Virus record (IMG/VR): IMGVR_UViG_3300009481_000057
Coordinates: 1 to 32,429 of that record
Direction: 5' to 3' (one strand)
Source: a virus
DNA: 32,429 bases
The notes under the pieces are model-generated. The model saw only the letters and a list, made by a program, of their open reading frames with translations, was not told where the DNA came from and made no database searches. The translations under genes were made by a program, and so were the position numbers. Below are positions 2,053 through 23,200 of this stretch, piece by piece. Each line of letters starts with the position of its first letter. Positions within the stretch are counted from its first letter, which is position 1.

Positions 2053-3140
2053 CTTTAACTAATGAACAAAAATTTGCTCTTACTTCTGTAAGGGATAGAT
2101 TCTTAGCTGGTGAAGAAGTTGACATATCATTAATGTACTTAATACAGGATGTCGCAGGTTTCACAGGAAGGGATGGTAGAAGTAAAGAGGGTAGGGCTGT
2201 AAAAGCTTATCTTAGTGAAATAGATTTCAACGCAATACCAGCCAGTGAATATCAGAAAGTAGACAAGCCAGAATTATCCGAAGAGCAGAAAGAATTCATT
2301 GCAAATCATAGGGGTACAATGAAATATGTTGAGATGTCTCGTATAATTTTTGGAGACGAGACTCTGACAAGCTTAAGCGCGGAAACTAGAATGGTCACAG
2401 ACTATTGCAAAAGTTTAGAAGGTCAAGATTTTGAAACGCCAGAAGAAGATCAAGAGAGATTTGAGTACAAGCCACCTAAGCATCCTGACAGGGTACTGAG
2501 TAGAGTTAATAGGTTTATCCATGATAGCGGAATAGATAAAGATAGAATAACTCCAAGGCAGAAAAAGAATTTAGAAAAGTTGATGGGCTACCTTCATACT
2601 TTTAGATTTGTTCATCAAATAAGTAACTATGAACATGAAACAGAAAGAGAGTTGTTTGAATCTTCTTTTGTTAGATACACACACGACAAGGCAGATTTAA
2701 CACAAGAAGAAGTTGATCAATATATAGTCTTATCTGGAGAAGTGGTTATAGCATCTAACATTCAGAGAAGAGTTGGCAGGCTTCAGAGACTACTTGATGA
2801 TACAGCTAACGATAACGAGGGCAGAAGAATCTCCATGAGTTTAGTTGAGGCTATAAGCACGGCGCAGAGTGAGTATAACTCTTGTGTTAATAGACAACAT
2901 AAGTTATTAAGTGATTTAAAGCAGAAAAGAAGTGATAGGTTAAGTAAGCAAGTTCAAGAAAATGCCAGCATACTCAACTTAGTAGAAACTTGGAAGGAAG
3001 AACAAAGCCGTAAGGAACTCATAAAGATGGCGGAGCTTAGAAAGAAAGCTATTAAAGATGAGGTCGATAAGCTTACAACTATTGATGATATTAAAGCTAG
3101 AATATTTGGCTTATCAGAGGAGGAAGCAATAAATGGATAA
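2049..3140 (+). CDS. Possible terminase small subunit, helical DNA-packaging protein
   Basis: The chosen ATG overlaps the sigma stop (ATGA) and gives 363 residues; a TTG two codons earlier is less likely. The N-terminal third carries two similar helical segments (around residues 25-55 and 85-125, the second MKYVEMSRIIFG) that could be helix-turn-helix units reading DNA. The C-terminal third, from about 228, is strongly helical and charged, with RQHKLLSDLKQKRSDR and a long coiled coil ending in FGLSEEE. Two HTH-like units plus an oligomerising coiled coil, placed two genes before the large terminase, fit a small terminase subunit. Sequence identity alone does not prove this. An alternative is a transcription or replication accessory protein. 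Confidence 0.45.
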   Translation: MTLTNEQKFALTSVRDRFLAGEEVDISLMYLIQDVAGFTGRDGRSKEGRAVKAYLSEIDFNAIPASEYQKVDKPELSEEQKEFIANHRGTMKYVEMSRIIFGDETLTSLSAETRMVTDYCKSLEGQDFETPEEDQERFEYKPPKHPDRVLSRVNRFIHDSGIDKDRITPRQKKNLEKLMGYLHTFRFVHQISNYEHETERELFESSFVRYTHDKADLTQEEVDQYIVLSGEVVIASNIQRRVGRLQRLLDDTANDNEGRRISMSLVEAISTAQSEYNSCVNRQHKLLSDLKQKRSDRLSKQVQENASILNLVETWKEEQSRKELIKMAELRKKAIKDEVDKLTTIDDIKARIFGLSEEEAING

Positions 3141-4089
3141 ACCACTTAGTGAATGTATGAAGATGGAGCATGTCTGTAAGATAGACGGAGAGAAGTTCGA
3201 AACAGAGAAGAAGTTACATATGCATCTCCGTAAACATAAAATGCGTATGGCTGAATATTATCAAAAGTATTACCCAAGGAGAGACTTACTTACTGGAGAT
3301 TTAATTAAATTTAAAAATAAAGCTCATTACTTTGCTAATTACTTTAATTCTAGACCTAATATGAAAAAGTATTTAGAATCCGCTTCTGAAGAAGATGCTA
3401 GAAAGTTTTGCGTACAAGTTATTAAAGATAGAATGGAGAGAAGAAAGATTAAATATTCTCCTACTCAAGTGGAACTTCGTTCGTCAATGATGCCACCTAT
3501 ATTTTATTATCAAAAACTTTTTGGTAACTATTATGACCTGTGTTGGGATCTTGGGTTATTAAAAAGATTTAATAAGCTACCTAAAAATGAGATAAAAGAA
3601 AGCATAGAAGAGGGTTATGAAATTGTAGTTGACACAAGAGAACAGAAACCTTTAAACATTAATTATGGAACTAGGAGAGAAGGTTTAAAATTTGCAGATT
3701 ACTGGCTTGACAAAGAAGGTAATAAATGTTATGTAGAAAGAAAAGAGACTAAAGATTTTATAGGCACATTTACTGGTGGCTGCGATAGGTTCTCTAGAGA
3801 ATTAGAAAGAGCAGAAGAGCAAGATGCTTATGTTGTTGTAGTCGTAGAAAATTCTTTAGATAACATGATGAAGTTTAACTATTTAAAATACATCACCAAA
3901 AAGGTTCAGGTTACTCCAGAGTACGTTATGAGAAATGTGAGAGACATTATACAGAAGCATGATAACGTACAGTTTTTATTTGCAAAAGGTAGGACAGAGG
4001 CTACTAGATTAACTAGAAAACTTTTCTTCTGCGGGGAAGATTACAAAAAATTAGATTTGCAGTTAGCTTACGATCTTAAGTTATTATAA
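3133..4089 (+). CDS. ERCC4-fold nuclease with degenerate N-terminal zinc finger
   Basis: This 318-residue protein carries the XPF/Mus81 (ERCC4) nuclease signature: VVDTREQKPL (D167, E170), then YVERKETKDF (E202-R203-K204, D208) and DRFSRELERAEE. These acidic and basic residues form the metal-dependent active site in this family, which cuts branched DNA. The N-terminus has a C2H2-like stretch (VCKIDGEKF...LHMHLRKH) in which the second Cys is Asp, followed by a phage-typical block YYQKYYPRRDLLTG and FKNKAHYFANYFNSR. It overlaps the upstream gene by 8 bases with a strong GAGGAGGAA ribosome site, and its stop overlaps the terminase ATG. It may resolve branched DNA before packaging, a job done by gp49 in T4. 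That role is inference. Confidence 0.82.
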   Translation: MDKPLSECMKMEHVCKIDGEKFETEKKLHMHLRKHKMRMAEYYQKYYPRRDLLTGDLIKFKNKAHYFANYFNSRPNMKKYLESASEEDARKFCVQVIKDRMERRKIKYSPTQVELRSSMMPPIFYYQKLFGNYYDLCWDLGLLKRFNKLPKNEIKESIEEGYEIVVDTREQKPLNINYGTRREGLKFADYWLDKEGNKCYVERKETKDFIGTFTGGCDRFSRELERAEEQDAYVVVVVENSLDNMMKFNYLKYITKKVQVTPEYVMRNVRDIIQKHDNVQFLFAKGRTEATRLTRKLFFCGEDYKKLDLQLAYDLKLL

Positions 4090-5942
4090 TGTGGTCAAGT
4101 CCTGAAAAGTACGAAAGAGAAGTCGAAGATGTCAATAGTAGATTGGCTAAGATAGAAGGCTTCCTAGAGGAGAAAGAAGCTCGTAGTACTTTAGCTCAGT
4201 TTCTTAGAAACAATTTATATTTTACCACTTTTCTATTGACTGGTATAAAACTAGCCCCATTTCAAGAGATAACTCTAAGGGGTATGTTCAATCGAAACTT
4301 CAGTATGTGTGTCTGGGGTCGTGGCTGTGGAAAATCTTTCATAGCTTCGATTTATTGTTTTCTGCAATGTATATTTGAACCAAACACTAAGATACTTATA
4401 GCTGGCCCTACTTTTCGTACAGCGAGGTTTATATTTAACAATATAGAAAAGATAGTAGAAACGAAGGAGGCTACTCTTCTAGCTCAAGCTTTTGGCGCGA
4501 AGGCTAAAAGAAACGATCAATACGAATGGAAGATAAACGGGGGCACTATAACTGCTATTCCTTTAAGTGGTGAAAAGATTCGTGGTTTTCGTGCTAACAT
4601 ACTTGTTCTTGATGAGTATCTACTATTGCCGGAAGACATAATTAGAAACGTACTTATGCCATTCCTTGTCGCGCCTCAAGATATGAAGCGCAGAATGGAG
4701 ATAAAAGAAATAGAAGATAAGCTAGTAGCTGACGGGATAATAAAAGAAGAAGAGAGAACTAAGTTTGAGAATAAATCTAAGATGATAGCTCTATCATCAG
4801 CTAGTTACACTTTCGAAAATCTTTACAAGACTTATCAAGAGTGGGTCAACAAAATTCAGTCAGACGAAGAAGTTGGCGATGCCAAATACTTTGTTTCTCA
4901 GATGGGTTACGAGTCCTTGCCTGAGGAAATGATAGACAGGACGATTATTGAAGAAGCTCAAGAGGGAGGCTCATCACACTTTTCATTTCAGCGGGAATAT
5001 TGCGCTCAGTTTACGGATGGTAGCGATAGTTATTTCAGCGCAAAGAAAATGGAGATGTGTACTCTCAAGGGGGACGAAGAGCCCTGTACCTTAATGGTAG
5101 GTAGGGGCGGAAAGCGTTACGTTATGGGTATTGACCCTAACATGAGCGATAGCCCCACGGCTGACTATTTTGCTATGTCTGTCATGGAGATAGATGATGA
5201 TACAGGGCAGGGAACTTTAGTGCATACTTATGCTGGGTTAGGTAGTTTAAATAAACATGTAAAATATTTAGCTTATATTCTTCAGGCTTTTAATATTGTT
5301 TTTATATGTCTTGATAATGCTGGCTCTGATACATATTTAGATAGTTGTAATGAATCTCAATTTTTTAAAGATGTAGGTATAAATTTAAAAACCATACCTT
5401 TAAACTCTGATGCAGAAGGTATAGAATATCAAAAATCTATAAAGCAAGCTAAACAAAAATACAATCAAGAAAATTATCAAATTTGTTTTAATCAAGTATT
5501 TACTAGTAATTTTATTCGTAGGGCTAACGAACATCTTCAAGCTTGCATAGACTATAAGAAGATTTGGTTCGCTTCTAGGACAGCTTCTAACGAATCCTTT
5601 TTCAACAGGACTAGCTCCATAAGATTGCCGTACCCTAAAAAACTAGTATTTATTGATGATCGGAAAGACTGGTCTATGCTTGATTTTATTGAGCATCAGG
5701 ACGATATGATTTATCAAACTAAAAAACAATGCAGCTTGGTTGAGCATAAATCAACAGCTAGAGGCTCACAGAACTTCGATCTTCCTCAACACCTCAAAAG
5801 ATCCACTTCAGCTAACAAAGCAAGAAAAGATAATTATTCTTCATTAATGTTGGCGAATTGGGGGCTTAAGCTCTATAACGACATAACTAAGGCCGAAATC
5901 AACACTAATAAAGAAACTTTCGAGCCTATAATGCTTTTTTAA
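4089..5942 (+). CDS. terL: Terminase large subunit
   Basis: This 617-residue packaging motor has both expected halves. The ATPase has Walker A WGRGCGKS (76-83), Walker B ILVLDE (171-176) and a coupling motif SSAS (236-239). The RNase-H-fold nuclease shows GIDPNMSD (D349), ICLDNAGSD (D409) and a late acidic motif QDDMIYQ near residues 537-543. It translocates DNA into the prohead and cuts concatemers. The ATG overlaps the upstream stop (TAATG). Length is normal for T4-like enzymes. Codon choice becomes more AT-rich around 5230-5520, which may reflect patchwork ancestry or nothing more. The next gene is a fibre-like protein rather than the portal, an unusual interruption of the usual terL-portal order. 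Confidence 0.95.
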   Translation: MWSSPEKYEREVEDVNSRLAKIEGFLEEKEARSTLAQFLRNNLYFTTFLLTGIKLAPFQEITLRGMFNRNFSMCVWGRGCGKSFIASIYCFLQCIFEPNTKILIAGPTFRTARFIFNNIEKIVETKEATLLAQAFGAKAKRNDQYEWKINGGTITAIPLSGEKIRGFRANILVLDEYLLLPEDIIRNVLMPFLVAPQDMKRRMEIKEIEDKLVADGIIKEEERTKFENKSKMIALSSASYTFENLYKTYQEWVNKIQSDEEVGDAKYFVSQMGYESLPEEMIDRTIIEEAQEGGSSHFSFQREYCAQFTDGSDSYFSAKKMEMCTLKGDEEPCTLMVGRGGKRYVMGIDPNMSDSPTADYFAMSVMEIDDDTGQGTLVHTYAGLGSLNKHVKYLAYILQAFNIVFICLDNAGSDTYLDSCNESQFFKDVGINLKTIPLNSDAEGIEYQKSIKQAKQKYNQENYQICFNQVFTSNFIRRANEHLQACIDYKKIWFASRTASNESFFNRTSSIRLPYPKKLVFIDDRKDWSMLDFIEHQDDMIYQTKKQCSLVEHKSTARGSQNFDLPQHLKRSTSANKARKDNYSSLMLANWGLKLYNDITKAEINTNKETFEPIMLF

Positions 5943-5968: not shown

Positions 5969-7099
5969 ATGCCTAGTAAGATAGCAACTGGACAAATAGA
6001 CGAGGCAGGTTTTCGAGACCTGTTCCTCAAGAAACTCTCGGGTTCTGCTACCGTTTCATCTGGATTTTATACCATAGCGAACCCGTCTGGATATGTACCT
6101 TTGGCTGATGGGCCAGAATCTCTAACTGGATACAGTGGAGATATAATGTCTAGAACATCTGGATTAATATCTAATGTTTCTGGAGCTTTGGACGCAAGTG
6201 GAACTTTGCTTTTCGATAAAGCTGTAGATGTCTCTGGCTTTGCGACTGGACTGAATCATGATACGAGTGGCTATCTTCAAACAGAAATAGAAACTGTTTC
6301 TGGAAATTTTTCTACGGTCAGTGGCGAGTTTTTAAAGTCTGGCTCTTTCTTTTATTCAACAACAGGAGATTTTAGAACTGATGCTCCCACAGGAGCTCTA
6401 TCTTACACTTCTGGAGACACTAGAGGTCTTTACGTTGTAACCGGAGATTCTACACATAAAGAAGGCTGGTCTAAAGTATCACAACATGCTGATATGACAG
6501 GTTACGTGTCTTTGTCTAGCGGGGACATAAAGACTAGCTTAGAAGCTACTGGCACTAGCCTGACAAGTTTAATATCTAATGTAAATTCAGATAGTTCAAC
6601 CAAGTTTACAGCAAAGAAAACTTTTGGAGCAGGATTAAAAACTGACTTAATGGAGCTAGGAACCAATGGAGTCACAATGCGTGTCAACTCTAATAACTCT
6701 GTTAGCTTCGATGACACAAGTGGTTCTTTAGTTACTATAGCTCCCGGTTATGGTGCTGATGCACCTGTGTTTTCTGTAACAGATAAAGCGGGACTACCTT
6801 TAGTAGATATATACGATGATGATAGGTTAAACTTTGGACCTTATGGCAAAAATCCTTTTAACATTAGCGGAGAAAAAGCTTGCTTCGGTAATTACAGATC
6901 TTACTTTAGTGGCTCTGATATCCACTTAAGCGGAGATCTTACAGTTAACGATCTAATAACAGTTAGCGGCTTATCTGGTGGATACGCTATACTATCAAAC
7001 TTACCTGAACATCCACATACAGGTGGTTTGCCTATTGGCACACTTTTCGTAAGCGGAAACAATACTGCTGGTAAAGGCAGACATTTAATGATAATTTAA
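5969..7099 (+). CDS. Fibre-like structural protein with SG repeats (TGQID paralogue 1)
   Basis: This 376-residue protein starts with IATGQIDEAGFRDLF and reaches SGFYTIANPSGYV by residue 43. The 277-residue protein at 15574 shares this N-terminal module. The body repeats short SG-centred units (LTGYSG, NVSGAL, VSGFATG, TVSGNF, TVSGEF), typical of elongated beta-rich phage fibres. The C-terminal part (from about 290) holds LSGDLTVNDLITVSGL and a closing module LPEHPHTGGLPIGTLF. It is probably a virion surface or tail-fibre-associated component. The shared N-terminus may be the attachment module. It is placed between terminase and portal, with no clear ribosome site. No enzymatic motif is visible. 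Confidence 0.65.
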   Translation: MPSKIATGQIDEAGFRDLFLKKLSGSATVSSGFYTIANPSGYVPLADGPESLTGYSGDIMSRTSGLISNVSGALDASGTLLFDKAVDVSGFATGLNHDTSGYLQTEIETVSGNFSTVSGEFLKSGSFFYSTTGDFRTDAPTGALSYTSGDTRGLYVVTGDSTHKEGWSKVSQHADMTGYVSLSSGDIKTSLEATGTSLTSLISNVNSDSSTKFTAKKTFGAGLKTDLMELGTNGVTMRVNSNNSVSFDDTSGSLVTIAPGYGADAPVFSVTDKAGLPLVDIYDDDRLNFGPYGKNPFNISGEKACFGNYRSYFSGSDIHLSGDLTVNDLITVSGLSGGYAILSNLPEHPHTGGLPIGTLFVSGNNTAGKGRHLMII

Positions 7100-7100
7100 A

Positions 7101-9002
7101 ATGACAAAGAAAACAAAGAAACAAGAAGACGAGATTAAGCCAATGATGACTAGCTTTGCGGCTTCGCCTTATACTACTCTTGATAACCAATCCACTAGGA
7201 GCAGGAGGAATGTTGGAGGTCAAATAGAACGAACCAACAGGTTTGAAAATATTGATAATGGCTTAGTTCCTTATAAATACACAAAAGGAGTAAATAATAA
7301 AAGCTCTCTTGATGTTAGGGATGTAGTGATTCTTTGTCAAAAAGCTTATTATAATTTTGCTGTCTTTAGGAATGTCATCGACCTAATGACAGAATTCTCC
7401 TCCACTAATCTTTACTTTACAGGAGGCAGTCAAAAATCAAGAGACTTCTTAGATGCTTTATTTAAGAAGATTGATATGCAAAGTTTTCTTGATAAATTTT
7501 TTAGAGAATATTATAGATCTGGAAATTGTTTCATTCATAGATTTGACACTAAAATTCAACCAGATGACTTAAAAAGAATTACCCAAACTTACGGCGGAAG
7601 CAAGCTAACTTCAATTGCTGAAGAAAGCAAGCTGCCCTCTAGATACATTATTTTAAATCCTGCTGACATTCAAATGGGAGGAAATATATCTTTCTTTTCT
7701 GGTCAGTATTATAAAATATTGACGGACTATGAGCTAGAAAGAATTAGAAATCCAAAAACAGAAGAGGACAAAGAAGTATATGATTCACTTGATCCAGCAA
7801 CAAAGAAGAGTCTGCAAGGAAAGAATGTTGGAATTATTTCTTTGAAATTAAATCCCGACAAAGTAACGCCAGTATTTTATAAAAAACAAGATTACGAGCC
7901 CTTTGCTGTGCCTATGGGCTATCCGGTTCTAGAGGATATAAACTGGAAGTCAGAGATGAAGAAGATGGATATGGCTTTGACTCGTACTACAAATCAAGCT
8001 ATTTTGTTGATAACAATGGGCTCAGAACTTAAGGATGGTAGTTTGAACATTAACCAAAGAAGTATTGAGACTATGCAGAAGCTTTTTGAGAATCAATCTG
8101 TTGGTAAGGTTCTTGTTTCTGACTATACCACCGAAGCTAAATTTGTTCTTCCGGACATAGCAGGTATACTTGATCCTAAAAAATACAGTGTTGTAAATCA
8201 AGACATTCAAATGGGTCTCAACAATATTTTAGTTGGGGAAGATAAGTTTGCTAATACCAGCATTAAGATACAGGTATTTATTGAAAGACTTAAGCAAGGA
8301 AGAGATGCCTTTATTAATCAGTTTTTAAATCATGAGATTAAACGTATTTGTAAATCTCTAGGTTTTAAAAATTATCCTAAAGCTAACTTCCAAGAGATCG
8401 AACTTAAAGATAAGACGACTTGGAATAGAGTTGTAGCTCAGCTGATTCAATATGGTATCCTTACTGCTGAAGAAGGTCTTCAAGCTATAAGTTCAGGTAG
8501 ACTTCCAGAACCTGAAGAGTCTTTAGAATCTCAAAAGAGATTTAGAGAGCTTAAAGACCAAGGTTTTTATTCTCCTCTTCTAGGGGGTGGCGGAGCTGGA
8601 GCACCGACTCCAGCAGGTAGGCCTGACGGGTCTACATCTCCCCAGACTACCAAAAAGGTTTCTCCTATTGGAGAAAATACTTCTGGCTCTCAGAAATTTA
8701 GCGTGGACAAAATAAAACAGAATTTAGCATTAGCTGAAAAGTTAGAAGCAGAGATTCAAGAGAAGCTTAAACTAAAATATGATAATAAAAGAGTAACAAA
8801 TAAAATTAAAACTCTTTCTTCTGAATTATGTAAAATAGTTATTGCCAATGAGTCATCTGATAAATGGTTAGATAAAGCTGCTGAATATATTAATAACCCA
8901 ACAGATACAAATGCAGAAGTTGTTAAAGAAATACAAAGTATAGCAATGGAGCATCAAGTTGATGAGTATTTAGCAAGTTTATTATATGCAAGTAAGGTTT
9001 AA
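7101..9002 (+). CDS. Portal protein
   Basis: This 633-residue protein sits just after the terminase block and before the head genes. The core from about residue 70 to 480 has the portal pattern: VRDVVILCQKAYYNFAVFRN, IDLMTEFSS, FFREYYRSGNCFIHRFD and RYIILNPADIQMGG. Later come MDMALTRTTNQAILLI and SIKIQVFIERLKQGRDAF, which resemble the stem and wing helices of portals. The C-terminus (from about 500) has a glycine/proline-rich linker (GGGGAGAPTPAGRP) and then a charged helical tail. Portals form the dodecameric ring through which DNA enters the capsid. It starts 2 bases after the preceding stop. The call rests on pattern and context together. Confidence 0.85.
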   Translation: MTKKTKKQEDEIKPMMTSFAASPYTTLDNQSTRSRRNVGGQIERTNRFENIDNGLVPYKYTKGVNNKSSLDVRDVVILCQKAYYNFAVFRNVIDLMTEFSSTNLYFTGGSQKSRDFLDALFKKIDMQSFLDKFFREYYRSGNCFIHRFDTKIQPDDLKRITQTYGGSKLTSIAEESKLPSRYIILNPADIQMGGNISFFSGQYYKILTDYELERIRNPKTEEDKEVYDSLDPATKKSLQGKNVGIISLKLNPDKVTPVFYKKQDYEPFAVPMGYPVLEDINWKSEMKKMDMALTRTTNQAILLITMGSELKDGSLNINQRSIETMQKLFENQSVGKVLVSDYTTEAKFVLPDIAGILDPKKYSVVNQDIQMGLNNILVGEDKFANTSIKIQVFIERLKQGRDAFINQFLNHEIKRICKSLGFKNYPKANFQEIELKDKTTWNRVVAQLIQYGILTAEEGLQAISSGRLPEPEESLESQKRFRELKDQGFYSPLLGGGGAGAPTPAGRPDGSTSPQTTKKVSPIGENTSGSQKFSVDKIKQNLALAEKLEAEIQEKLKLKYDNKRVTNKIKTLSSELCKIVIANESSDKWLDKAAEYINNPTDTNAEVVKEIQSIAMEHQVDEYLASLLYASKV

Positions 9003-9005
9003 AAC

Positions 9006-10166
9006 ATGAGTGAAAATCAAGAAAATATTCAAGACGTAAATCAGTACTTTGGTGCTGCAGAGATAGATGTAATGGTTCCGGATATTCCTTTACCTCCAGA
9101 GCCAGAAGAAAAGAAAGAAGTTAAGGACGAAGTAGACGGAGCGTTTAAATTTGCCTTTATCGGTGCTGGGCAAGGTGGCTCTAGAATTGCTGAAAGCTTT
9201 CATAAATTAGGATACAGAAAAATCGGTATCGTCAATACTGCTCAACAAGATCTCAACTCTATAAACGTAGAGAACAAGCTTTGTATTGGTGCTGGTGGAG
9301 CAGGTAAAGATAGAAGTGTTGCAGCTAAATGTTTTGAAGAAAGAAGAGATGATGTTCTTGATTTTATGCGTCGTTCTTTTGGGGAAGATGTAGATAGAAT
9401 CTTTGTTTGTGCTGGGGCTGGAGGAGGATCTGGTGCAGGCACCTTAGTTCCTTTGGTTAAGACCGCTCAGGAGCTTCAAGAGACAATTAAATCTGGCTCT
9501 AAAAAGGTTGGGGTTATTTTGGCCTTACCTAAGTATTCTGAGGGCAGGAAAGTAAACGCTAATGCTTATAACACTTTGAAAGAAGCTTGCGAGTTAGTTA
9601 ATCAGGGTGTTGTGTCTCCTCTTGTTATCATTGATAACGAAAAGACAAGTAAGTTGTATTCTAATGTGTCTGTTTCTAATTTTTGGCAAACAGCTAATAT
9701 GAGCACGGCTGGAGTATTTCATCTATTTAACATGACAGCTTCAAAAGATAGCTCTTATTCTTCTTTTGATTCTAGTGACTACAAAAATGTTCTAGATTCT
9801 GGTATTACTATCTTTGGGGCTACACCAGTTCCTAAGTGGGATGATCCTGTAAGTATTTCTAGAGCTGTCAGAAGCATCGCTCAGAGCGGTAGTATGTCAG
9901 GAGGTATAGATGTATCTACAGCTAATTCAGCTGGAGCTATCCTTATAGGAGGTAAAGAGGTATTGGATAATATTCCACAATCTAGTCTTGATGAAGCTTT
10001 TGATCAATTAACTAGAATTCTTAGGTCTGGAAGTGTAGTACATAGAGGGATATACAGTGGTGATAAAAATAACCTTACTGTGTTTACAATTATTGGTGGT
10101 ATAGCGACTCCAGAAGAGAAGCTAAAAGAGCTAATGAAACTAGGAGATTTAGACAAAGCAGTTTAA
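9006..10166 (+). CDS. Tubulin/FtsZ-superfamily GTPase
   Basis: This 386-residue protein has the full FtsZ-like series after an acidic N-terminal extension of about 45 residues. The motifs are T1 GAGQGGSR (53-60), T2 VNTAQQDL (76-83), T3 GAGGAGKDR (95-103), the tubulin signature GAGGGSGAGT (137-146), T5 LPKYSEGRK (174-182) and T6 VIIDNEK (207-213). The T7 synergy loop SFDSSDYKNVL (253-263) keeps both aspartates, D255 and D258, used for GTP hydrolysis across a filament interface, although the usual Asn is Ser. The C-terminal domain ends in TVFTIIGGI. It is therefore predicted to bind GTP and polymerise. It lies between portal and capsid genes, 3 bases after the portal stop. Jumbo-phage PhuZ and plasmid TubZ are relatives in function, but the motif set looks closer to FtsZ. 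Confidence 0.88.
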   Translation: MSENQENIQDVNQYFGAAEIDVMVPDIPLPPEPEEKKEVKDEVDGAFKFAFIGAGQGGSRIAESFHKLGYRKIGIVNTAQQDLNSINVENKLCIGAGGAGKDRSVAAKCFEERRDDVLDFMRRSFGEDVDRIFVCAGAGGGSGAGTLVPLVKTAQELQETIKSGSKKVGVILALPKYSEGRKVNANAYNTLKEACELVNQGVVSPLVIIDNEKTSKLYSNVSVSNFWQTANMSTAGVFHLFNMTASKDSSYSSFDSSDYKNVLDSGITIFGATPVPKWDDPVSISRAVRSIAQSGSMSGGIDVSTANSAGAILIGGKEVLDNIPQSSLDEAFDQLTRILRSGSVVHRGIYSGDKNNLTVFTIIGGIATPEEKLKELMKLGDLDKAV

Positions 10167-10228: not shown

Positions 10229-10855
10229 ATGGCAGTAGGAGACTCAGTAAGAAACGTATTCATGCTTTCCGCCAACTCGCCCGCTGGAGGCGCAGACGAC
10301 GGAGGCAGCAAGTTAACCTTCCTCACCAGTGGTGCAGGAGCAGGTAAAATCAAATTCATGGGTGCTGGCGCAGCAATTAAGTCAGCAACTGATGTAGCTA
10401 AAGCAACCGATGTAACAGGTATTGTAATTCCTTTACATGGTGAAACTTTAGAGTCAGTTGGCGCGACAGAATATACTCACGGCCCATTGAATATAGTCGG
10501 TGACCCAACCGTATCGGACTACTCTTTGACCTCTGGTGATCTATTTGATAACGCAGGAAACGAAGTCCACGGTGGAGCTCAAAAATTTGTAAACGCTGTT
10601 CTTGACGGAGCTTTTAGAGCTTACACTTCAGGTGTTGATCAAGGTAGCGGTATTAGCAGCATGACAGTGAGTAGGGGAGACTTAAGTCTGTCTAATACTT
10701 CAGTTACTGATGGAACCGGTATTGTTAATACTTATACCAGATCTTATACAGTGAACTTCAAATATTATCAATCTGGAGTTATCCAACAAGGCGATAATGA
10801 CACCGCTGCAAGACCTGATATTGCAACAGATGGTTCTGATGGCGTTCCGTTCTAA
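10229..10855 (+). CDS. Hypothetical virion protein, probably highly expressed
   Basis: This 208-residue protein is rich in Gly, Ala, Thr and Ser, has no cysteine, and shows a beta-rich pattern (VTGIVIPLHG, YTRSYTVNFKYYQSG). It belongs to no family I recognise. Three things suggest abundant expression: a -10-like TGTATAAT upstream, a strong AGGAGA ribosome site, and a strong intrinsic terminator 26 bases after its stop, so it may be on a short transcript of its own. Its position between the tubulin and the head genes fits a structural protein such as a head or tail component. A partner of the tubulin is also possible. No membrane segment or catalytic motif is visible. Confidence 0.7.
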   Translation: MAVGDSVRNVFMLSANSPAGGADDGGSKLTFLTSGAGAGKIKFMGAGAAIKSATDVAKATDVTGIVIPLHGETLESVGATEYTHGPLNIVGDPTVSDYSLTSGDLFDNAGNEVHGGAQKFVNAVLDGAFRAYTSGVDQGSGISSMTVSRGDLSLSNTSVTDGTGIVNTYTRSYTVNFKYYQSGVIQQGDNDTAARPDIATDGSDGVPF

Positions 10856-10880: not shown

Positions 10881-10911
10881 GACCCCCCAATAAATTTGGG
10901 GGGTTTTTTTT
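10881..10911 (+). terminator. Rho-independent terminator
   Basis: A 9-base-pair stem, ACCCCCCAA (10882-10890) with TTGGGGGGT (10896-10904), closes a 5-base loop and is followed by a long T-run. It ends the transcript of the 208-residue protein and separates it from the capsid block. Confidence 0.93.
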
Positions 10912-11434: not shown

Positions 11435-11728
11435 ATGGCTAGATCAACTAATTCTCAACAAACTCAAGGAGTACCTTCTGTATCAAGGACAGCCAATAAA
11501 ACAGGGGCTGGCGCGGTAGTCGCAGCAAGCAGCGGTGATACTATTGTTATAACAGATATACTAGCCTCGGCGGCTACAACACTAAGTACTTCGGCCGCAG
11601 GAGCAGACACTATTATTGCATACGCTCCGGCTGGTGGAACAAATTTAAACCAAGGTATTCAAGTACCAACTAGTTCTGGTGTCTACAGTAGCGCCGGTAA
11701 CGTAACAATGAACTATTATATAATCTGA
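11435..11728 (+). CDS. Small beta-sandwich virion protein
   Basis: This 97-residue protein has the alternating hydrophobic/Ala-Thr-Gly pattern of small beta-sandwich proteins seen in phage structural regions: GDTIVITDILASAATTLS, TIIAYAPAGG, then a closing GNVTMNYYII. A ribosome site AAGGA lies 8 bases before the ATG. The TGA stop overlaps the protease ATG by one base. It is likely a capsid-associated or decoration-like component. The fold is a guess from pattern and the function from context. Confidence 0.6.
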   Translation: MARSTNSQQTQGVPSVSRTANKTGAGAVVAASSGDTIVITDILASAATTLSTSAAGADTIIAYAPAGGTNLNQGIQVPTSSGVYSSAGNVTMNYYII

Positions 11729-13206
11729 TGAAATATACAACTATTTTCAGCTCAAATGTAAGGCCTGTAGTATCTGAAGAAAAAGATAAGTATTTAGCTT
11801 TAGCTTCTGCTATTGAGGTAGCTCAGTTCGTCCCTGAGGTTGATGAAAAACAAGTAGATCTTTTACCAATAGCTTTTAATGCATTTGTTGCTAATAGAGT
11901 TAATAAGAATGGCGATGTAGTTGATACTGATACAGCCATGGCCTTTTATAAAGATTTCAAAAACAAGCCAATTAATATTGAGCATAATAGAGATAGAGTT
12001 ATTGGTACTATTTTAACTGCTGGATTTTCTGAATTTGGTACTGACAAACCCTTAACAGAAGAACAGGTTCAAGAAATTAAAGGGCCATTTAATGTTACTT
12101 TAGGTGGTGTGATCTGGAAGGTAGTCAACCAAAGAGTAGCAGATCTTATTGAAGAGTCAGCTGACCCAAGTAGTAACGACTATATGAAAATTAGTGCTAG
12201 TTGGGAATTAGGTTTTAAAGATTATAATTTAGTGCTTTTAGAAGGAAGTGATAAGAACATAGAGAATGGGCTAATCGTTGATAATGTAGACGAAGTTGCA
12301 TCTATGGAAAAAGATTTAAAAGCTTTAGGGGGAGAGGGTAAGACTAGAGATGGAATGTTTGTTTACAGAAAAGTTGTAGGCGATGTTGTTCCCCTTGGTA
12401 TAGGTCTTACTGAGACCCCTGCTGCCGACGTTGTAGGTGTTTCTACTAAAGATACAGTAGAAAAAGAAGTCGAGCAAGAAAAAGACACTTTTGCTGAAGT
12501 AGAGACTGAACCAGTTAATGCTTCACAAATAACAGAAAATAATGTAATAACCCAAAACGAGGAGTTTGAAATTATGAAAATAGAAAGTATTAAAGACATC
12601 ACGAATGAGTCTTTGAAGGAGCTTTCTGCCTCGGCTGTTTCTGATTTTATCGAATCGGAACTCAAGGAAGCTTCCGAGAGATTTTCAGCCGAAAAGGAAA
12701 AGGTGGAAGCAAATCTCAAAGAAGCTCAAGAGAAGATCGAGTCCATTAACTTGGATTATGATAAAGTCAAAGCAGAACTCGAGTCTGTCAGCGAAAAGCT
12801 TACCGATCTTGAAGCCGAAAAAGCGGAAAAAGAATCCGAAGAGTTGTTCTCTCAGAGAATGGCCTCTTTAGACGAAAGATTCGCCTTGGAAGCAGAGGAT
12901 CGTGAAGTTCTTGCAGGTCAGATCAAAGAATTGGACGCAGAAGGCTGGGATGCCTTTGCTAAGAACATTGAAGTTCTGCTAAGAGACAAGTCAAGAGAAG
13001 TCTTGGCTAAGAAGGAAGACGAAGCTTCTAAAGAAGCTGAAGTTGAAGAAGAAAGTAAAGCTTCCGAGGAAGTTGTGGAAGACGCTATTGATAGAGGCGA
13101 ACAAGATACTGATGTTGTTCCAGCTTCTACTCAGGCTTCTGAAGGATCTACCTACGACAAGTACAAAAATGCTTTCGAGATTGATCAATTTGATATTAGT
13201 TACTAA
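11728..13206 (+). CDS. Prohead protease with C-terminal scaffold region
   Basis: This 492-residue protein has two parts. Residues 45-235 look like a phage prohead maturation protease: AFNAFVANRVNKNGDVVDT, then the His block PINIEHNRDRVIG (H86), and KISASWELG with candidate nucleophile S156 or S158. Residues about 283-440 form a long charged coiled coil (FSAEKEKVEANLKEAQEKIE and onwards) typical of scaffolding proteins, followed by an acidic tail. Protease-scaffold fusions are known in several phages and the protease normally digests the scaffold after assembly. The ATG overlaps the previous stop. An internal start at 12574 likely yields the scaffold alone. The capsid gene is two genes downstream. 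Confidence 0.85.
   Translation: MKYTTIFSSNVRPVVSEEKDKYLALASAIEVAQFVPEVDEKQVDLLPIAFNAFVANRVNKNGDVVDTDTAMAFYKDFKNKPINIEHNRDRVIGTILTAGFSEFGTDKPLTEEQVQEIKGPFNVTLGGVIWKVVNQRVADLIEESADPSSNDYMKISASWELGFKDYNLVLLEGSDKNIENGLIVDNVDEVASMEKDLKALGGEGKTRDGMFVYRKVVGDVVPLGIGLTETPAADVVGVSTKDTVEKEVEQEKDTFAEVETEPVNASQITENNVITQNEEFEIMKIESIKDITNESLKELSASAVSDFIESELKEASERFSAEKEKVEANLKEAQEKIESINLDYDKVKAELESVSEKLTDLEAEKAEKESEELFSQRMASLDERFALEAEDREVLAGQIKELDAEGWDAFAKNIEVLLRDKSREVLAKKEDEASKEAEVEEESKASEEVVEDAIDRGEQDTDVVPASTQASEGSTYDKYKNAFEIDQFDISY
12574..13206 (+). CDS. Nested in-frame scaffold protein (internal start)
   Basis: Inside the protease gene, an ATG at 12574 (Met283) is preceded by CGAGGAG, with GGAG at 12561-12564 and a 9-base spacing, better than most starts in this window. 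Initiation there gives a 210-residue, almost wholly coiled-coil acidic protein without the protease domain. This matches the known lambda arrangement, where Nu3 scaffold is translated within gene C. Codon choice also changes near this point, from AT-ending codons to more CTC, AAG, ATC and GCC, as in the capsid gene, which fits a product needed in many copies. Expression from this start is inference. Confidence 0.6.
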   Translation: MKIESIKDITNESLKELSASAVSDFIESELKEASERFSAEKEKVEANLKEAQEKIESINLDYDKVKAELESVSEKLTDLEAEKAEKESEELFSQRMASLDERFALEAEDREVLAGQIKELDAEGWDAFAKNIEVLLRDKSREVLAKKEDEASKEAEVEEESKASEEVVEDAIDRGEQDTDVVPASTQASEGSTYDKYKNAFEIDQFDISY

Positions 13207-13899: not shown

Positions 13900-15060
13900 A
13901 TGAGACTTAAATTGAAAAACACCCCAGAGCAAGTCGAACTCATCAAAGCGATGGGCTCTAAGAACTCGCTCGTAGCTCGTGAAGCTTCTGAAGCTTTCGC
14001 AGCTTTCCTCGGCCCTGTTGTGCAGAGAGTTCTGCAGCAGGCCGCTACGGCTGGAGCAATCTATACTGATGCTCCATTTAATCAAGATGAAGGAGCTAGC
14101 TATCCTCTTGACCTTTACTACAACGAAACCAATGATGGTTACGTAAGCGTATGGTCTCAAAACGTTGCTGGTGGTCTTCCAACTTCGCAGGATGTATCCG
14201 CGATTCAAGAGTTGAAGATTGCTACTTATCGTTTGGATGCTGCTGTTTCTATCACGAAGAAGTATGCCAGACAAGCAAGACTTGATGTTGTAAGCAAGCT
14301 AATTGAGCGTATGTCTCAAGAGGTTCTACTTAAGCAGGAAAGAAATGCTTGGGCTGTGGCTTTGAACGCTTTGGCTAATGCTACCACTAGCTCTGTTACC
14401 GCCAGCTCTGTTGGCATTACAAGCTTGAAGGCTGGCTCTCATGTCATTCCAGCGTACAATCAGAATAGATTCCAGTTGCAGGACTTGAATAAGTTGATGA
14501 CTCTTAATAAGAGAATCAATCAGTCTTGGGCCGCTGGTACTACTGATGCAGCTTACAGTAACGGCATTACAGACTTGTATGTTAGCCCTGAGATTAAGGA
14601 ACAGATCCGTGCTTTCGCTTATCAGCCAATGAACACTGTTCAGGCTACAAGTGGTCAGACTTCTATTCCTCTTCCTGATAGCATCAGAACTGACGTGTTC
14701 AATTCTGCTGGTATGCAAGAGATCTACGGTGTTAACATCGTTGAGCTTAATGAGCTTGGAGTCGGCCAGAAGTACAATACTCTGTTTGACGAGTTTGACA
14801 GCGGTAACGTTGGTCCTCACTCCTCTGCAGGTCAAGCTACTTCCTTCTCTGGCAGTTCTATGGAACTTGCTGTTGGTGTTGATAATAGCAAGGGTGCGTT
14901 TGTTCGCGCTATTGCTCAGGAGTCAGACACAGGTGATACTTTCACTACTACTCCAGACGATCAATTCACCCAGAGAAACGAGAGAATCGGTTTCTACGGT
15001 TCTTTGGAAGAAGGTCGCGTCTGCATCGACTCACGCGCTATCGTTGGACTTACCGTCTAA
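13900..15060 (+). CDS. Major capsid protein
   Basis: This 386-residue protein fits an HK97-fold capsid subunit. It has a helical N-terminus (LVAREASEAFAAFLGPVVQR), a long region with SITKKYARQARLDVVSKLIE and QEVLLKQERNAWAVAL (spine-helix-like), and a C-terminal beta-rich part ending CIDSRAIVGLTV. The gene has the strongest ribosome site in the window (AAAGGAG, 11 bases before the ATG), GC-richer codons than its neighbours and an intrinsic terminator right after its stop, all consistent with the most abundant virion protein. It follows the protease, scaffold and decoration genes in the standard order. No separate N-terminal delta domain is obvious, in keeping with a detached scaffold. Confidence 0.88.
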   Translation: MRLKLKNTPEQVELIKAMGSKNSLVAREASEAFAAFLGPVVQRVLQQAATAGAIYTDAPFNQDEGASYPLDLYYNETNDGYVSVWSQNVAGGLPTSQDVSAIQELKIATYRLDAAVSITKKYARQARLDVVSKLIERMSQEVLLKQERNAWAVALNALANATTSSVTASSVGITSLKAGSHVIPAYNQNRFQLQDLNKLMTLNKRINQSWAAGTTDAAYSNGITDLYVSPEIKEQIRAFAYQPMNTVQATSGQTSIPLPDSIRTDVFNSAGMQEIYGVNIVELNELGVGQKYNTLFDEFDSGNVGPHSSAGQATSFSGSSMELAVGVDNSKGAFVRAIAQESDTGDTFTTTPDDQFTQRNERIGFYGSLEEGRVCIDSRAIVGLTV

Positions 15061-15083
15061 TTTTAGAGCATAAATATATAACG

Positions 15084-15109
15084 AAGCCCCCGGAAACGGG
15101 GGCTTTTTT
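15084..15109 (+). terminator. Rho-independent terminator after capsid gene
   Basis: The stem AAGCCCCCG (15084-15092) pairs with CGGGGGCTT (15097-15105) around a GAAA tetraloop, and a T-run follows. It is a strong intrinsic terminator closing the capsid transcription unit. Confidence 0.95.
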
Positions 15110-15573: not shown

Positions 15574-16407
15574 ATGGCTCAACTTATTAGTACAGGTCAG
15601 ATAGATCTTGGTGGTTTAAAAGAATTCCTACTAAGACCAGATTCTGAGAGCTTATCCGGTAGTGCGAATAACATTACCGGATTTTATCCTTATTCAGGTA
15701 ACCCCTCTGGTTTTGTAGACGCCGGTCATGTCGAAAGCGTAAGCGGCGACTTATCTGGTTATATAGACTCTGTAAGTGGTGTCATAAATACAAGACTAGT
15801 AGAGTCTGGCACTAATTTAAGTGGATATACTTCCTCAGTAAGTGGTAATCTTAAAAGTGACATAACTTATCTAAGTGGTAAGAATTTAGAATTAAGCGGT
15901 AATTTTTCTACTACAAATTCAAGATCTGTTGATAATGAAGCTGACATAGATAGCCTTAGCGGCAACCTAATTACTTCTGGTCAGAATTTATCTTCATTAA
16001 TAACAGGCGTAAGTGGTCAAGGCGTTAGTGGTTTTGTTACGGGTTTGATTGACTCGACAAGCGGAGTCCTTGATGTCAAGATAACTAATTTAAATACAGA
16101 TTTAAGAGATCATGTAAATCAAGATTATCTTTCTAAAAGAAACGAATCTGAACTTGTCTCTGGATCGGTGTCTTTTGATAAAACTACCCGTTTTAAACAG
16201 AGTGTGGAGCTGGAAAGGGTTATTGATCACGACGAAGTAGCAACTTATCAGAGTGGCTCTAATATGTACACAATGGTTAGTGGAGCAACAGTAGGAGGGG
16301 CTGCTCATCAAGTTATGACAACTTATTTACGTTATCCTCATAGTGGAGATTCAGTTAGGCAAAATTTAATAGTAGGTTCTTTTATGTATAGTGGGGTTAT
16401 ACCATAA
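15574..16407 (+). CDS. Fibre-like structural protein with SG repeats (TGQID paralogue 2)
   Basis: This 277-residue protein shares its N-terminal module with the one at 5969: LISTGQIDLGGLKEFLL, then SGSANNITGFYPYSGNPSGF. A run of SG-spaced units follows (SVSGDLSGYIDSVSGVI, NLSGYTSSVSGNL, YLSGKNLELSGNF) to about residue 165, suggesting an elongated beta or coiled fibre. The C-terminus is different (MVSGATVGGAAHQVMTTYL, ending YSGVIP) and may be a tip or assembly domain. It is likely a tail-fibre or baseplate-associated virion protein. The stop overlaps the next ATG (TAATG), so it is coupled to the LamG protein at 16407. Confidence 0.65.
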   Translation: MAQLISTGQIDLGGLKEFLLRPDSESLSGSANNITGFYPYSGNPSGFVDAGHVESVSGDLSGYIDSVSGVINTRLVESGTNLSGYTSSVSGNLKSDITYLSGKNLELSGNFSTTNSRSVDNEADIDSLSGNLITSGQNLSSLITGVSGQGVSGFVTGLIDSTSGVLDVKITNLNTDLRDHVNQDYLSKRNESELVSGSVSFDKTTRFKQSVELERVIDHDEVATYQSGSNMYTMVSGATVGGAAHQVMTTYLRYPHSGDSVRQNLIVGSFMYSGVIP

Positions 16408-19220: not shown

Positions 19221-20255
19221 ATGAATGAAGTTCCTTTCCTAGAAGAGACTGTGCCTCTATTTGACACTCATAAACAAAGAGGTCAGCAGCTTGCCAAAGA
19301 TGTAGTTATTAAGATAAACTCTTTTTCTTTCGGAGATACTTTAGCTGCTACTCCAACCATAAGAAAGCTAGCAGAGTGTTACGCTAAAAAGATAATAGTA
19401 TGCACTTCCAAGCCTTTTCTTTTTGATCATAATCCTAATGTTCTTTTTACTATACATTTAAATGATTTTAACAATGAGCACTACGATAATTATGAAGTAT
19501 TTGATACTTTTAATTCTATAGGAAAAGAAGATAAGTCTGGAATAGAAAAGAAGTACGCAGCTTACGACATAAGAAAAATACACTGTACTGAAATAGGATT
19601 TGACCTAAGGCCAGAAGAGTTGCATTGCGACTATTATCCCGGACCAATTGAATTTAGTAAAGAAGATCAATCTTTTCTAAGTAATAGTAATTATGTAGTT
19701 ATGCATATTGGTCAAAACTGGCCTAGTAGAACTTGGCCTAGAGAAAGTTATGTGAATTTAATTAATGCTCTCAACTCAAGCGGTTTCAAAGTTGCTTTAG
19801 TAGGTTTTGATCAAAAACCTGAGCCGGGACAGTATAACCATGATAAGACTTGTTATAATTTTGAAGATTTAGAATTTGATGGCTTGAGTTTTCTAAACAG
19901 GACCTCATTAGACCAAGACTACTATATAACAAAGAACTCAGAAGCATGTATAACAATGGATACAGGCCAGCTTCACTTAGCGGGATGTACTGATACACAT
20001 ATTATTTATATGGGGGCTTCTGTTCACCCTTTATGGAGAGCGCCTTATAGAAACGGCTCTCAGTCTTATAAGATGACTTTTGTTGGTGGTACATGTAAAT
20101 CATTTTGCGCCTCTGACCCTAAATACTCTGTAGTTGAACATAGCACTATAAATAGTGTCCCTCCACTCCCGTTCTGCCTAGAGGGTAGACCTAACTATGA
20201 TTGCCAACCTACTTGGAAAGATGTTTTTGATGAAACATTAAAAATTTTAAAATGA
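19221..20255 (+). CDS. GT9-family (heptosyltransferase-like) glycosyltransferase with Cys4 finger
   Basis: This 344-residue protein has GT-B features of the ADP-heptose transferase family (GT9). The N-terminal loop NSFSFGDTLAATPTIRKL (33-50) matches the GDxLxxTP motif. The C-terminal domain has VVMHIGQNWPSRTWP and the donor-binding MDTGQLHLAG (246-255). Near the C-terminus, C292, C296, C319 and C328 form a possible metal finger (TCKSFC, PFC, YDC). TibC-type O-heptosyltransferases bind iron with a four-cysteine finger, so this protein may be related in function. It starts 38 bases after the adhesin and overlaps the next gene (ATGA). It probably transfers a heptose-like sugar in the cytoplasm; the acceptor is unknown. 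Confidence 0.82.
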   Translation: MNEVPFLEETVPLFDTHKQRGQQLAKDVVIKINSFSFGDTLAATPTIRKLAECYAKKIIVCTSKPFLFDHNPNVLFTIHLNDFNNEHYDNYEVFDTFNSIGKEDKSGIEKKYAAYDIRKIHCTEIGFDLRPEELHCDYYPGPIEFSKEDQSFLSNSNYVVMHIGQNWPSRTWPRESYVNLINALNSSGFKVALVGFDQKPEPGQYNHDKTCYNFEDLEFDGLSFLNRTSLDQDYYITKNSEACITMDTGQLHLAGCTDTHIIYMGASVHPLWRAPYRNGSQSYKMTFVGGTCKSFCASDPKYSVVEHSTINSVPPLPFCLEGRPNYDCQPTWKDVFDETLKILK

Positions 20256-23200
20256 AGAGAAGAGTATTATTTGTGCCTATGCATCTTTCTACTGGTGGCT
20301 CTCCTCAGTGGTTATTAGAACTAATAAAAGTATCAATATTAGAAAATGAAGTTTTTGTAGCGGAGTTTAATAATTATGGCACGTTTAATATACAAAAAGA
20401 TAAGATAATAAATCTTGTAGGAAAGAAAAGTTATGAGTGTATAGGTCCATGTTTTTCTGATAACTGGGAAGAAGAAAGGAATAGGCTCTGGGAAATAATA
20501 CAGGAATTTAAACCTCATATAATACACTTTAATGAAATACCTGAAAATTTTGAATATAATGGTTTTCCTAAAGAGTTATTAGAAAAAATTTATAGTCCAG
20601 ATAGATCTTATCAAATATTCGAAACTTGCCATGATAATGCATTTGATTTTGTCAATAAGGTCCATCATCCAGATGGATACATATGTGTTTCAGATTATCA
20701 TCCTAGGAAAATTAAAGATATTTTTCCTGAAGCAAATTGCTATATCTGGGATTATACAATACCTAAAAAGAATAGGCCTGATAGAGTTAAAACATTAACT
20801 AGCCTTGGCCTAGATCCTGATAAGACGCACGTACTCAACGTAGGCCTTTTTCATGAAAACAAAAATCAAAAATTCATTTACGACATAGCAAAACAAGTCT
20901 TAGATGAAAATGTTGAATTTCATTTTATAGGTAATGACTGCTATCTTTCTAATTGTGGTATTGAGGATGTAAACTTATCTAATTGCAAGGTGTGGGGCGA
21001 AAGGAGTGATGTTGAGACTTTCTATTCATGTATGGATATATTCTTTTTCCCATCCCTTAGAGAACTAAATCCTTTAAGCGTTAAAGAAGCTTTGTCTTGG
21101 GGTATGCCTGTTTTGATGAATAGGATAGAAGCATGTGACCTATATAAGAAATACGAGAATAATAAAAATGTAACTTTTATAGACGATGTCGATAGCAAAA
21201 AATATATTCTAGATAGAATTAAAAAGCCTGAGAAAAAAGATTTGAGGATAGGTCTGTATACAAGTTTTTACAATAATGCTAGATTCATACCGGGACTATA
21301 CGATGAAATATCCAATCAGACTTATTCTAATTGGAAGTGGTTCGTTACAGATGATTTCAGTAAAGATGATACAGTTAAAAGCGCGCTTCTTGATTTAGCT
21401 TCTAGAGATAGTAGAGTAGTTTATTGCGAGCAAAAGAGTAAGAAAGAAATGTTTTGGAATGCGCAGCGTTTCATAACGGATGATTGCGATTATCTAGCTT
21501 TAGTTGATGCTGACGATGGTATATATCCTAAAGCTTTAGAATTTCTAGCTCATATGCTTAAAAAGAATCCTAGCGCTTTCAGTTTTTCTACTTGGTTTCA
21601 TCAGTACGATGGAGACTTAAGCTTGAGAAAGAATATAACTAATCCGGACTATTCTTTTCCTAAAGGTAATTGGCACGATTATCTTGATAAACACGAAAAG
21701 GACCTTAAGTCGGATGCTTTTGATTGGTCTAATCTAAGGTCTTTTAGATTTTTCGGAGCCCTAAGGGGTCATAAAAATAAAGGCGACGTCAATATAGAAG
21801 TCAATAGTCCAGTCGAAACAGTTTCAGAAGACTCTATAAGAATGGCTCAACTGCAAAAATATGGAGACTATATACTGTTCCCTAGGCCTATGTATAAAGT
21901 TCTTAACCATGAGGAGTCTCACGCTACCCCCTCTAATGTCAACGATGAACAGGAAAAGGTGGGTAAGCAAAATTTATATAACTCAATAAAATCTACAAAA
22001 GGATATAGACATAATAAAATATTACCAACTTACTATAATTTCTTTGATGAGTTATGCGCTTTAGCTAAGTCCGATATACAATTTGAAATAGATAGAAAGA
22101 AGCTATGTTTAATTACTAATAGAGATGTATCAAAGTCTGAAGAAAGTAAGATTAGAGATTTGTATTTTGATCATGACTTTTATATTAATAAATTCGAAGA
22201 AGATATAGACTATTTCTTTTTCGATTGTAATAGTTTTTCTAAATTAGAATTATGTGAGGTTTTCAGTAAACTTAACAATATCAAAGGGCGTTTTCAAATA
22301 AACGCTTACTGCTTACTTGAGAATGAGGAAGAAGAAGGCGATAAGATAAAATACATAAACGAAATATCTTTAATGCCTTTTTCTTGGAATTCTTTTTGTA
22401 GGAATATTATTTTTAATTTTAATATAAATAAAATAAAAGACAAAGTATTTATAGAAATATGTAGCTCGTCGCTTGGAGATAACGTGGCTTGGGTTCCTTA
22501 TATTGAAGAATACAGAAAAGAGAATGACTGTGATGTTTATGCATTTACTTATAAAAATGATCTTTATAGAGATAGCTATCCTGAAGTAAATTTTGTAGAC
22601 AGGTTGGAAGACGTGGAAGTCATGAGCTTTGATAAAAGGCTTAAAGTAGGCTGGTTCGATGATACTCCAGATTGGGTTAAGAATCAAGAAGAGCAAAGAG
22701 CTGGGTCTTACTATTTAAATTTAGAACATAAAGAGCTTAGGCCTAAAATAGATATATTAAATAAAGAGAGAGTTATAGAAGATAAATATGTTTGTATCTC
22801 TGTGCAATCAACGGCTCAATGTAAATATTGGAACAACCCAACAGGATGGGATCAAGTTATTGAATACTTAAATTCTAAAGGTTATAAAGTTGTTTGTATT
22901 GATAGGCATGAAAGCTATGGAGGTAGAGAAAGGTATAATTATATACCATCAGGAGCTATTAATAAAACAGGAGACTTCGATTTGCAAGAAAGAATAACAG
23001 ACTTGTATAACTGTGAATTTTTCATAGGTTTAGGTTCAGGGCTTTCTTGGTTAGCGTGGGGTGTTGGGAAGGATGTTGTTTTGATAAGCGGATTCAGTAA
23101 CGAGGCCACTGAGTTTTATACACCTTATAGGGTAATTAATAAGAATACTTGTAATTCCTGTTGGAATAGAGAAAAGTTTGATCCTAATAATTGGGATTGG

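Follow-up and report, generated by a model that had tools for sequence, protein, structure and literature searches.

A tubulin gene paired with the portal gene in uncultivated phages and its possible role in virion assembly

The tubulins known so far in phages are PhuZ, present in phiKZ-like jumbo phages, and TubZ, found in a few plasmid-like phages. In the superfamily to which these proteins belong, the aspartates of the T7 loop act across the interface between stacked subunits, completing the catalytic site of the neighbouring subunit. In one published study, PhuZ-type tubulins are described as believed to position phage particles in phiKZ-like phages (PMC3678025). The passages available from the literature searched cover the PhuZ and TubZ types in jumbo phages and describe neither the tubulin clade presented here, nor its coupling to the portal gene, nor its N-terminal motif; the clade is apparently undescribed, and widespread in phages.

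The member studied here is encoded in a stretch of 32,429 nucleotides, referred to as the window, that corresponds to positions 1 to 32,429 of the IMG/VR virus record IMGVR_UViG_3300009481_000057, from an uncultivated marine phage. Its reading frame is open and the product has 386 aa. Conservation is given over 68 representatives, one for each of the clusters formed at 85% identity by 132 distinct complete tubulins obtained in wider viral scans. The gene includes the following features:

9006-10166, plus strand: tubulin/FtsZ-superfamily GTPase, 386 aa (Pfam, motifs, model, tree)
9063-9101, plus strand: N-terminal tail motif, core VPDIPLP, codons 20-32 (59 of 68 clusters; tail predicted disordered)
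9156-9185, plus strand: T1 nucleotide loop FIGAGQGGSR, codons 51-60 (motif and family alignment)
9414-9440, plus strand: T4 tubulin signature GAGGGSGAG, codons 137-145 (motif and family alignment)
9765-9782, plus strand: T7 synergy loop FDSSDY with D255 and D258, codons 254-259 (both aspartates in 68 of 68 clusters)

The identity of the product as a genuine GTPase of the tubulin/FtsZ superfamily is well supported, and the assignment to the superfamily is far above chance. The protein matches the Pfam families Tubulin (E 6.5e-11, 43.3 bits, cut-off 33) and Tubulin_2 (E 1.1e-6, 28.6 bits, cut-off 27). The nucleotide loops and T7 aspartates, which a preliminary description of this DNA had read as intact, are all present: the T1 core GAGQGGSR occupies residues 53-60, T2 is NTA (77-79), T3 is GGAGKD (97-102), T5 is PKYSEG and T6 is DNE. 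Residues G53, G55, G58, N77, T78, D82, G98, G100, G137, G139-141, G143, G145, P175, E179, N211, D255 and D258 are identical in the 68 clusters, and an active polymerising GTPase, as that description had proposed, is a fair prediction. The gene is under strong purifying selection, with a dN/dS of 0.041, similar to that of the terminase gene (0.040); for comparison, the value is 0.053 for the portal gene, 0.077 for the putative capsid gene, 0.093 for the putative protease gene and 0.21 for a 208-aa ORF downstream, and since synonymous sites are near saturation, the rank order is weightier than the values themselves. Each record searched carries one copy of the tubulin gene.

An AlphaFold2 model of the protein (mean pLDDT 81, pTM 0.82) was compared with the folds in the PDB, giving Z scores of about 31-35 for CetZ and TubZ and of at most 31 for FtsZ. 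With the single sequence, the best PDB match was TubZ/RepX (E 1.7e-15), CetZ and FtsZ came next at 1e-10 or worse, and the score with the ftsZ equivalog model, 56 bits, was well below its cut-off of 295. The earlier impression that the motifs are closer to FtsZ does not hold in view of these results and of the placement of the protein in a clade of its own.

TubZ/RepX, known from type III plasmid and phage partition, has in common with the phage tubulin the fold (Z about 35), the GTPase site and its occurrence in mobile elements; it differs in forming a separate clade in the tree and in carrying a long C-terminal helix and a flexible tail, both missing from the phage tubulin, which has the conserved N-terminal motif instead. 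A TubR-like gene adjoining the phage tubulin was not found, the neighbours being the portal gene and the 208-aa ORF; in the plasmid TubZ references, a small ORF is located directly upstream in most records. PhuZ of the phiKZ-like jumbo phages is also a phage-encoded tubulin and its job is analogous to the one proposed below, the placing of phage particles or DNA, but it is very distant, with a branch of about 7 changes per site that is too divergent to place. PhuZ of phage Noxifer aligned with the model of the phage tubulin with a Foldseek TM of 0.54, and no annotated portal is found beside the phiKZ PhuZ gene, unlike the gene described here. FtsZ shares the T1-T7 motifs and the two-domain fold (Z about 30), with about 20-24% identity over the fold; however, it has a C-terminal linker and an FtsA/ZipA-binding peptide that the phage tubulin does not have, and it occupies a separate branch of the tree. 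No structure had a higher fold score than that of the archaeal protein CetZ (4b45; Z 35.5 at 24% identity), which TubZ equalled; in contrast to the phage tubulin it is a cellular protein with a role in cell shape, and the tree places it with FtsZ, apart from the phage clade. The sole match in an annotated phage isolate was gp138 of Bacillus phage G (24% identity), which groups with TubZ and has thymidine kinase and other metabolic genes as neighbours, not a portal. The location in a head module, considered unusual for a phage tubulin in the preliminary description, indeed differs from those of phiKZ PhuZ and phage G gp138. The best viral structure match, A0A6J5RW92 (Foldseek E 2e-31, 26% identity), annotated as 'FtsZ Cell division GTPase' of an uncultured Caudovirales phage, is probably a distant member of the 65-cluster clade described below; it is a database entry for which no description was found in the literature searched.

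A first scan of viral contigs identified 66 tubulin loci with 63-100% identity, and in the wider scans the most distant members of the family share about 28-35% identity with the respective query; a single-sequence scan with one member, L127, matched L127 itself and two copies. As references the tree included FtsZ from E. coli, two FtsZ of archaeal type, two CetZ, eight TubZ from plasmids unrelated to the toxin-bearing plasmids and phages, the phage G protein and phiKZ PhuZ. In this tree one clade (support 98/91) takes in 65 of the 68 viral clusters, FtsZ, CetZ and TubZ fall outside it, and phage G goes with TubZ; the FtsZ references are few, and the long reference branches make the deep order less certain but do not affect the case against a recent host FtsZ. 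More distant phage tubulins lie beyond the 65-cluster clade (L289, L361 and L229), two of them, L289 and L361, without the N-terminal tail and the third, L229, in a record of 333 kb. Among the matches listed from two scans that covered 84,980 species genomes of bacteria and archaea there was no member of the clade, and two weak cellular matches (L294 and L295) proved to be chromosomal FtsZ genes in their usual division-gene neighbourhoods. At the sampling used, the tree and these scans rule out a recent copy of a host FtsZ. Phylogeny and synteny had been suggested beforehand as a check on the origin of the gene, and they gave a viral clade of its own within which synteny is conserved; because of this synteny and of the absence of cellular members among the matches listed, the gene does not behave as a recently copied host FtsZ lacking conserved neighbours.

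Residues 1-35 of the tubulin have a pLDDT below 50 and are predicted to be disordered. Across the family the motif in this tail has the form (L/V)PDIP(L/M)P, typically LPDIPMP, and is located about 30 residues ahead of T1; the sequence before T1 is otherwise freely variable. The pattern [LIVM]P[DEN][ILMDV] was found in the tails of 59 of the 68 clusters, compared with a mean of 7.3 and a maximum of 15 for shuffled tails, a count taken over related clusters, which hence are not 68 independent cases. The motif persists across the tree, grading into variants such as IPDLPIEDFEIPED, and the tail prolines P25 and P30 are kept in 60/68 and 55/68 clusters, respectively. At the other end the protein is short: the family median is 17 residues past the last strand (68 clusters), and the query tubulin ends about 20 residues past it, with a final helix at 370-379 in the model, so docking tails of the FtsZ and TubZ C-terminal type are absent. 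The N-terminal motif may represent a docking peptide. The C-terminal peptide of FtsZ also has the letters D-I-P, a short and weak likeness. The motif, the short C-terminus and the linkage to the portal as a lineage trait had all been overlooked in the preliminary description.

The genes and sites surrounding the tubulin gene in the window are as follows:

4089-5942, plus strand: terminase large subunit (Pfam Terminase_6N, E 1.6e-8; PHROG terminase, E 5.5e-26)
5969-7099, plus strand: 376-aa ORF with Ser/Gly-rich repeats, in the terminase-portal interval (no family match)
7101-9002, plus strand: portal protein, 633 aa (fold matches; weak PHROG portal hits in several members)
10229-10855, plus strand: 208-aa ORF past the tubulin gene, fast evolving (dN/dS 0.21; no family match)
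10881-10905, plus strand: strong intrinsic-terminator-like hairpin, after the portal-tubulin-208-aa stretch
11728-13206, plus strand: 492-aa ORF (conserved N-terminal domain; C-terminal half looks coiled-coil)
13900-15060, plus strand: putative major capsid protein, 386 aa (position; weak Phage_capsid_4 match, E 0.014, in two members)
15083-15106, plus strand: terminator-like hairpin after the putative capsid gene

The ORF at 7101-9002 alone gave no convincing family match. With its model (pLDDT 58.6, partly of low confidence), all 50 of the 50 PDB matches listed were portals (Z 9.6-12.6), and portals were also matched in a viral structure library. The identity of the portal thus comes from fold matches, and the distance of 3 bases between its stop and the tubulin start, given in the preliminary description, was confirmed. 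A possible ribosome-binding site, AAGG, precedes the tubulin start, and on the coding strand of the portal-tubulin interval there is no strong terminator-like site, the next one being the hairpin at 10881-10905. This operon-like layout shows a predicted coupling of tubulin translation to that of the portal. Residues 535-633 of the portal form a fairly confident helical C-terminal domain past a disordered linker, kept across the family; it is a candidate partner surface for the tubulin.

The setting of the tubulin gene in the head/packaging module, beside the portal, agrees with the preliminary description; the labels of protease and capsid given to the genes downstream should be taken as provisional. 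The 492-aa ORF has invariant E85, H86, S156 and S158 and gave no PDB profile match and no protease family match; it is perhaps a prohead protease-scaffold, a label that is mainly positional. The putative capsid protein gave no PDB profile match either. The 376-aa ORF may encode a virion surface protein; in several loci, relatives of this ORF and relatives of an ORF at 15574-16407 are similar to one another, at about 30-40%. Other genes of the window include an ERCC4-type nuclease (3133-4089) directly ahead of the terminase, a position conserved among close relatives; a protein with Sigma-70 region 2 near the head module (1354-2052), possibly a late sigma factor; a 1013-aa protein with similarity to glycosyltransferases (20252-23293; PHROG E 5.6e-6); and a 963-aa collagen-like fibre (23702-26593), formed mostly by TSGTSGSSG repeats, from which its C-terminal end differs. 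Searches of the 32,429 bases for tRNAs and Rfam RNAs found none.

The cases in which the portal is upstream of the tubulin all belong to one sub-clade of 36 clusters (support 100/99), of which 33 have the portal no more than 3 kb ahead of the tubulin, in 26 of these at 60 bp or less. A distant lineage, beyond the portal-tubulin clade, has the reverse order, tubulin-portal (L331:1967-3379, with a gap of 13 bp; L387:4682-5980, with a gap of 11 bp); therefore, the pairing with the portal recurs. In a subset of the clade a gene of about 365-450 aa ('MPRVRITSQSQALYVGPAPSTG...') is placed between both genes:

L045:4673-5971, intervening gene between portal and tubulin
L048:4442-5752, intervening gene between portal and tubulin
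L127:8871-9968, intervening gene between portal and tubulin

Similar genes are found directly after the portal in phages without a tubulin at that place (L382, L391), and the intervening gene perhaps encodes a tail structural protein.

When the portal was taken as the starting point, a tubulin was near in 17 of 80 loci and absent from 31 that have at least 4 kb of downstream sequence, which rules out a universal linkage. In the portal tree three tubulin-less groups are nested among the tubulin-bearing ones, for a minimum of three changes, and of 14 portal-first records searched over their full length, all of them fragments (of up to 97 kb), only that of L387 has a tubulin, with none in the other 13. 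Given these three portal lineages and 13 of 14 records without it, the tubulin is not obligate for head assembly. Where a portal could be recognised in outgroup tubulin lineages, it lies about 14 (G026), 63 (G011) and 99 kb (G015) away from the tubulin, and in the divergent members L232, L264, L283 and L257 a profile comparison of the large neighbouring ORFs revealed no adjoining portal. Portal and tubulin distances correlate with r 0.87 for all pairs and 0.17 for pairs more than 20% apart, and because of this last value the correlation says little on deep co-inheritance. The coupling to the portal strongly characterises a lineage but is no general rule.

A relative of 158 kb (G001) is a large phage that encodes DNA polymerase III alpha, DnaB, ribonucleotide reductase, ThyX, PhoH, RIIA/RIIB, several sigma factors, sugar-synthesis enzymes and six tRNAs; the sigma factors point to a bacterial host. 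Records of the wider tubulin family reach 200-333 kb. Against phage isolates, the terminase large subunit has only about 25% identity to proteins of Bacillus, Lactococcus and other phages, and the portal and the putative capsid protein gave no match. The family of the portal at 7101-9002 has at least 595 confirmed stretches in IMG/VR and no match among 50,697 phage records, which indicates a large uncultivated phage lineage. Phage_sheath_1, denoting a contractile tail, gave no match in 10 records.

The reading that explains the observations best, to which we nonetheless give somewhat less than an even chance, is that the tubulin forms a cytomotive filament, expressed late, that works on proheads or packaging complexes and is docked through its N-terminal tail. 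The protein would be expressed late, together with the packaging and head genes, and would form filaments, driven by GTP, by which intermediates of virion assembly (portal-nucleated proheads or packaging complexes) are held or moved in the cell; the PDIP-type tail would dock a partner, as the C-terminal tails do in FtsZ and TubZ, and the pairing with the portal would determine how much of the protein is made and when, and perhaps reflects direct contact. Such a role is favoured by the motifs conserved in 68/68 clusters, the fold, the identity of the portal, the recurrent linkage, the portal-tubulin interval free of strong terminator-like sites, the low dN/dS (about 0.04), the N-terminal motif, the short C-terminus and the precedent of PhuZ-type tubulins; it is limited by the fact that adjacency to the portal differs from contact, that three portal lineages have no adjoining tubulin and that the portal is distant in the outgroup lineages. 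A more specific version, doubtful though worth retaining, is that the filament engages the portal or prohead directly by the PDIP peptide and forms part of assembly or packaging in this large uncultivated lineage, independently of a phage nucleus.

The main rival to a filament acting on virion assembly is a motor for genome positioning or partition, similar to TubZ or to the PhuZ spindle, that centres or segregates phage DNA or a replication compartment, the proximity to the portal reflecting late co-expression only. We regard it as possible but on the unlikely side: TubZ/RepX as best PDB sequence match, a fold closest to CetZ/TubZ, the distance between tubulin and portal in the outgroup lineages and the large genomes with their own replication genes agree with it, whereas a small TubR-like gene directly upstream, as in most plasmid TubZ genes, and the TubZ-type C-terminal tail are both missing, and chimallin, which forms the nuclear shell of nucleus-forming phages, gave no match in 14 large records, a weak argument since the profile is Phikzvirus-specific and the records are fragments. 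Less likely, and in our view improbable, is a local assembly factor or a part of the prohead or portal vertex, i.e. a chaperone-like GTPase without long dynamic filaments; the tight coupling to the portal gene in both orders and a module composed of terminase, portal and head genes would suit it, but the T7 aspartates, which act between stacked subunits, are invariant in 68/68 clusters and thus favour polymerisation, and relatives that share this portal family apparently manage without the tubulin. Interference with host division, by co-assembly with or titration of FtsZ, or by competition of the PDIP tail for the partners of the FtsZ C-terminal peptide, is still more improbable. It draws on the superfamily kinship to FtsZ and on the common D-I-P letters; nonetheless, identity to FtsZ over the fold is low, the motif is at the opposite end and has no FLR part, and coupling to the portal is ill-suited to a host-takeover gene, so the disturbance of host division put forward in the preliminary description is not borne out. 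Finally, no evidence was found in favour of a host ftsZ captured recently or of a passenger gene in decay, and either is hardly credible given the viral clade apart from FtsZ (98/91), the dN/dS and the absence of clade members from bacterial and archaeal genomes among the matches listed.

These observations add a further clade to the phage tubulins, one that is widely sampled (68 family clusters, records up to 333 kb). They suggest that some phages use a cytoskeletal filament to build or place new particles; the portal-coupled branch makes it testable whether phage cytoskeletons work on virion assembly itself, and the N-terminal motif, being conserved, gives a practical starting point in the search for a partner.
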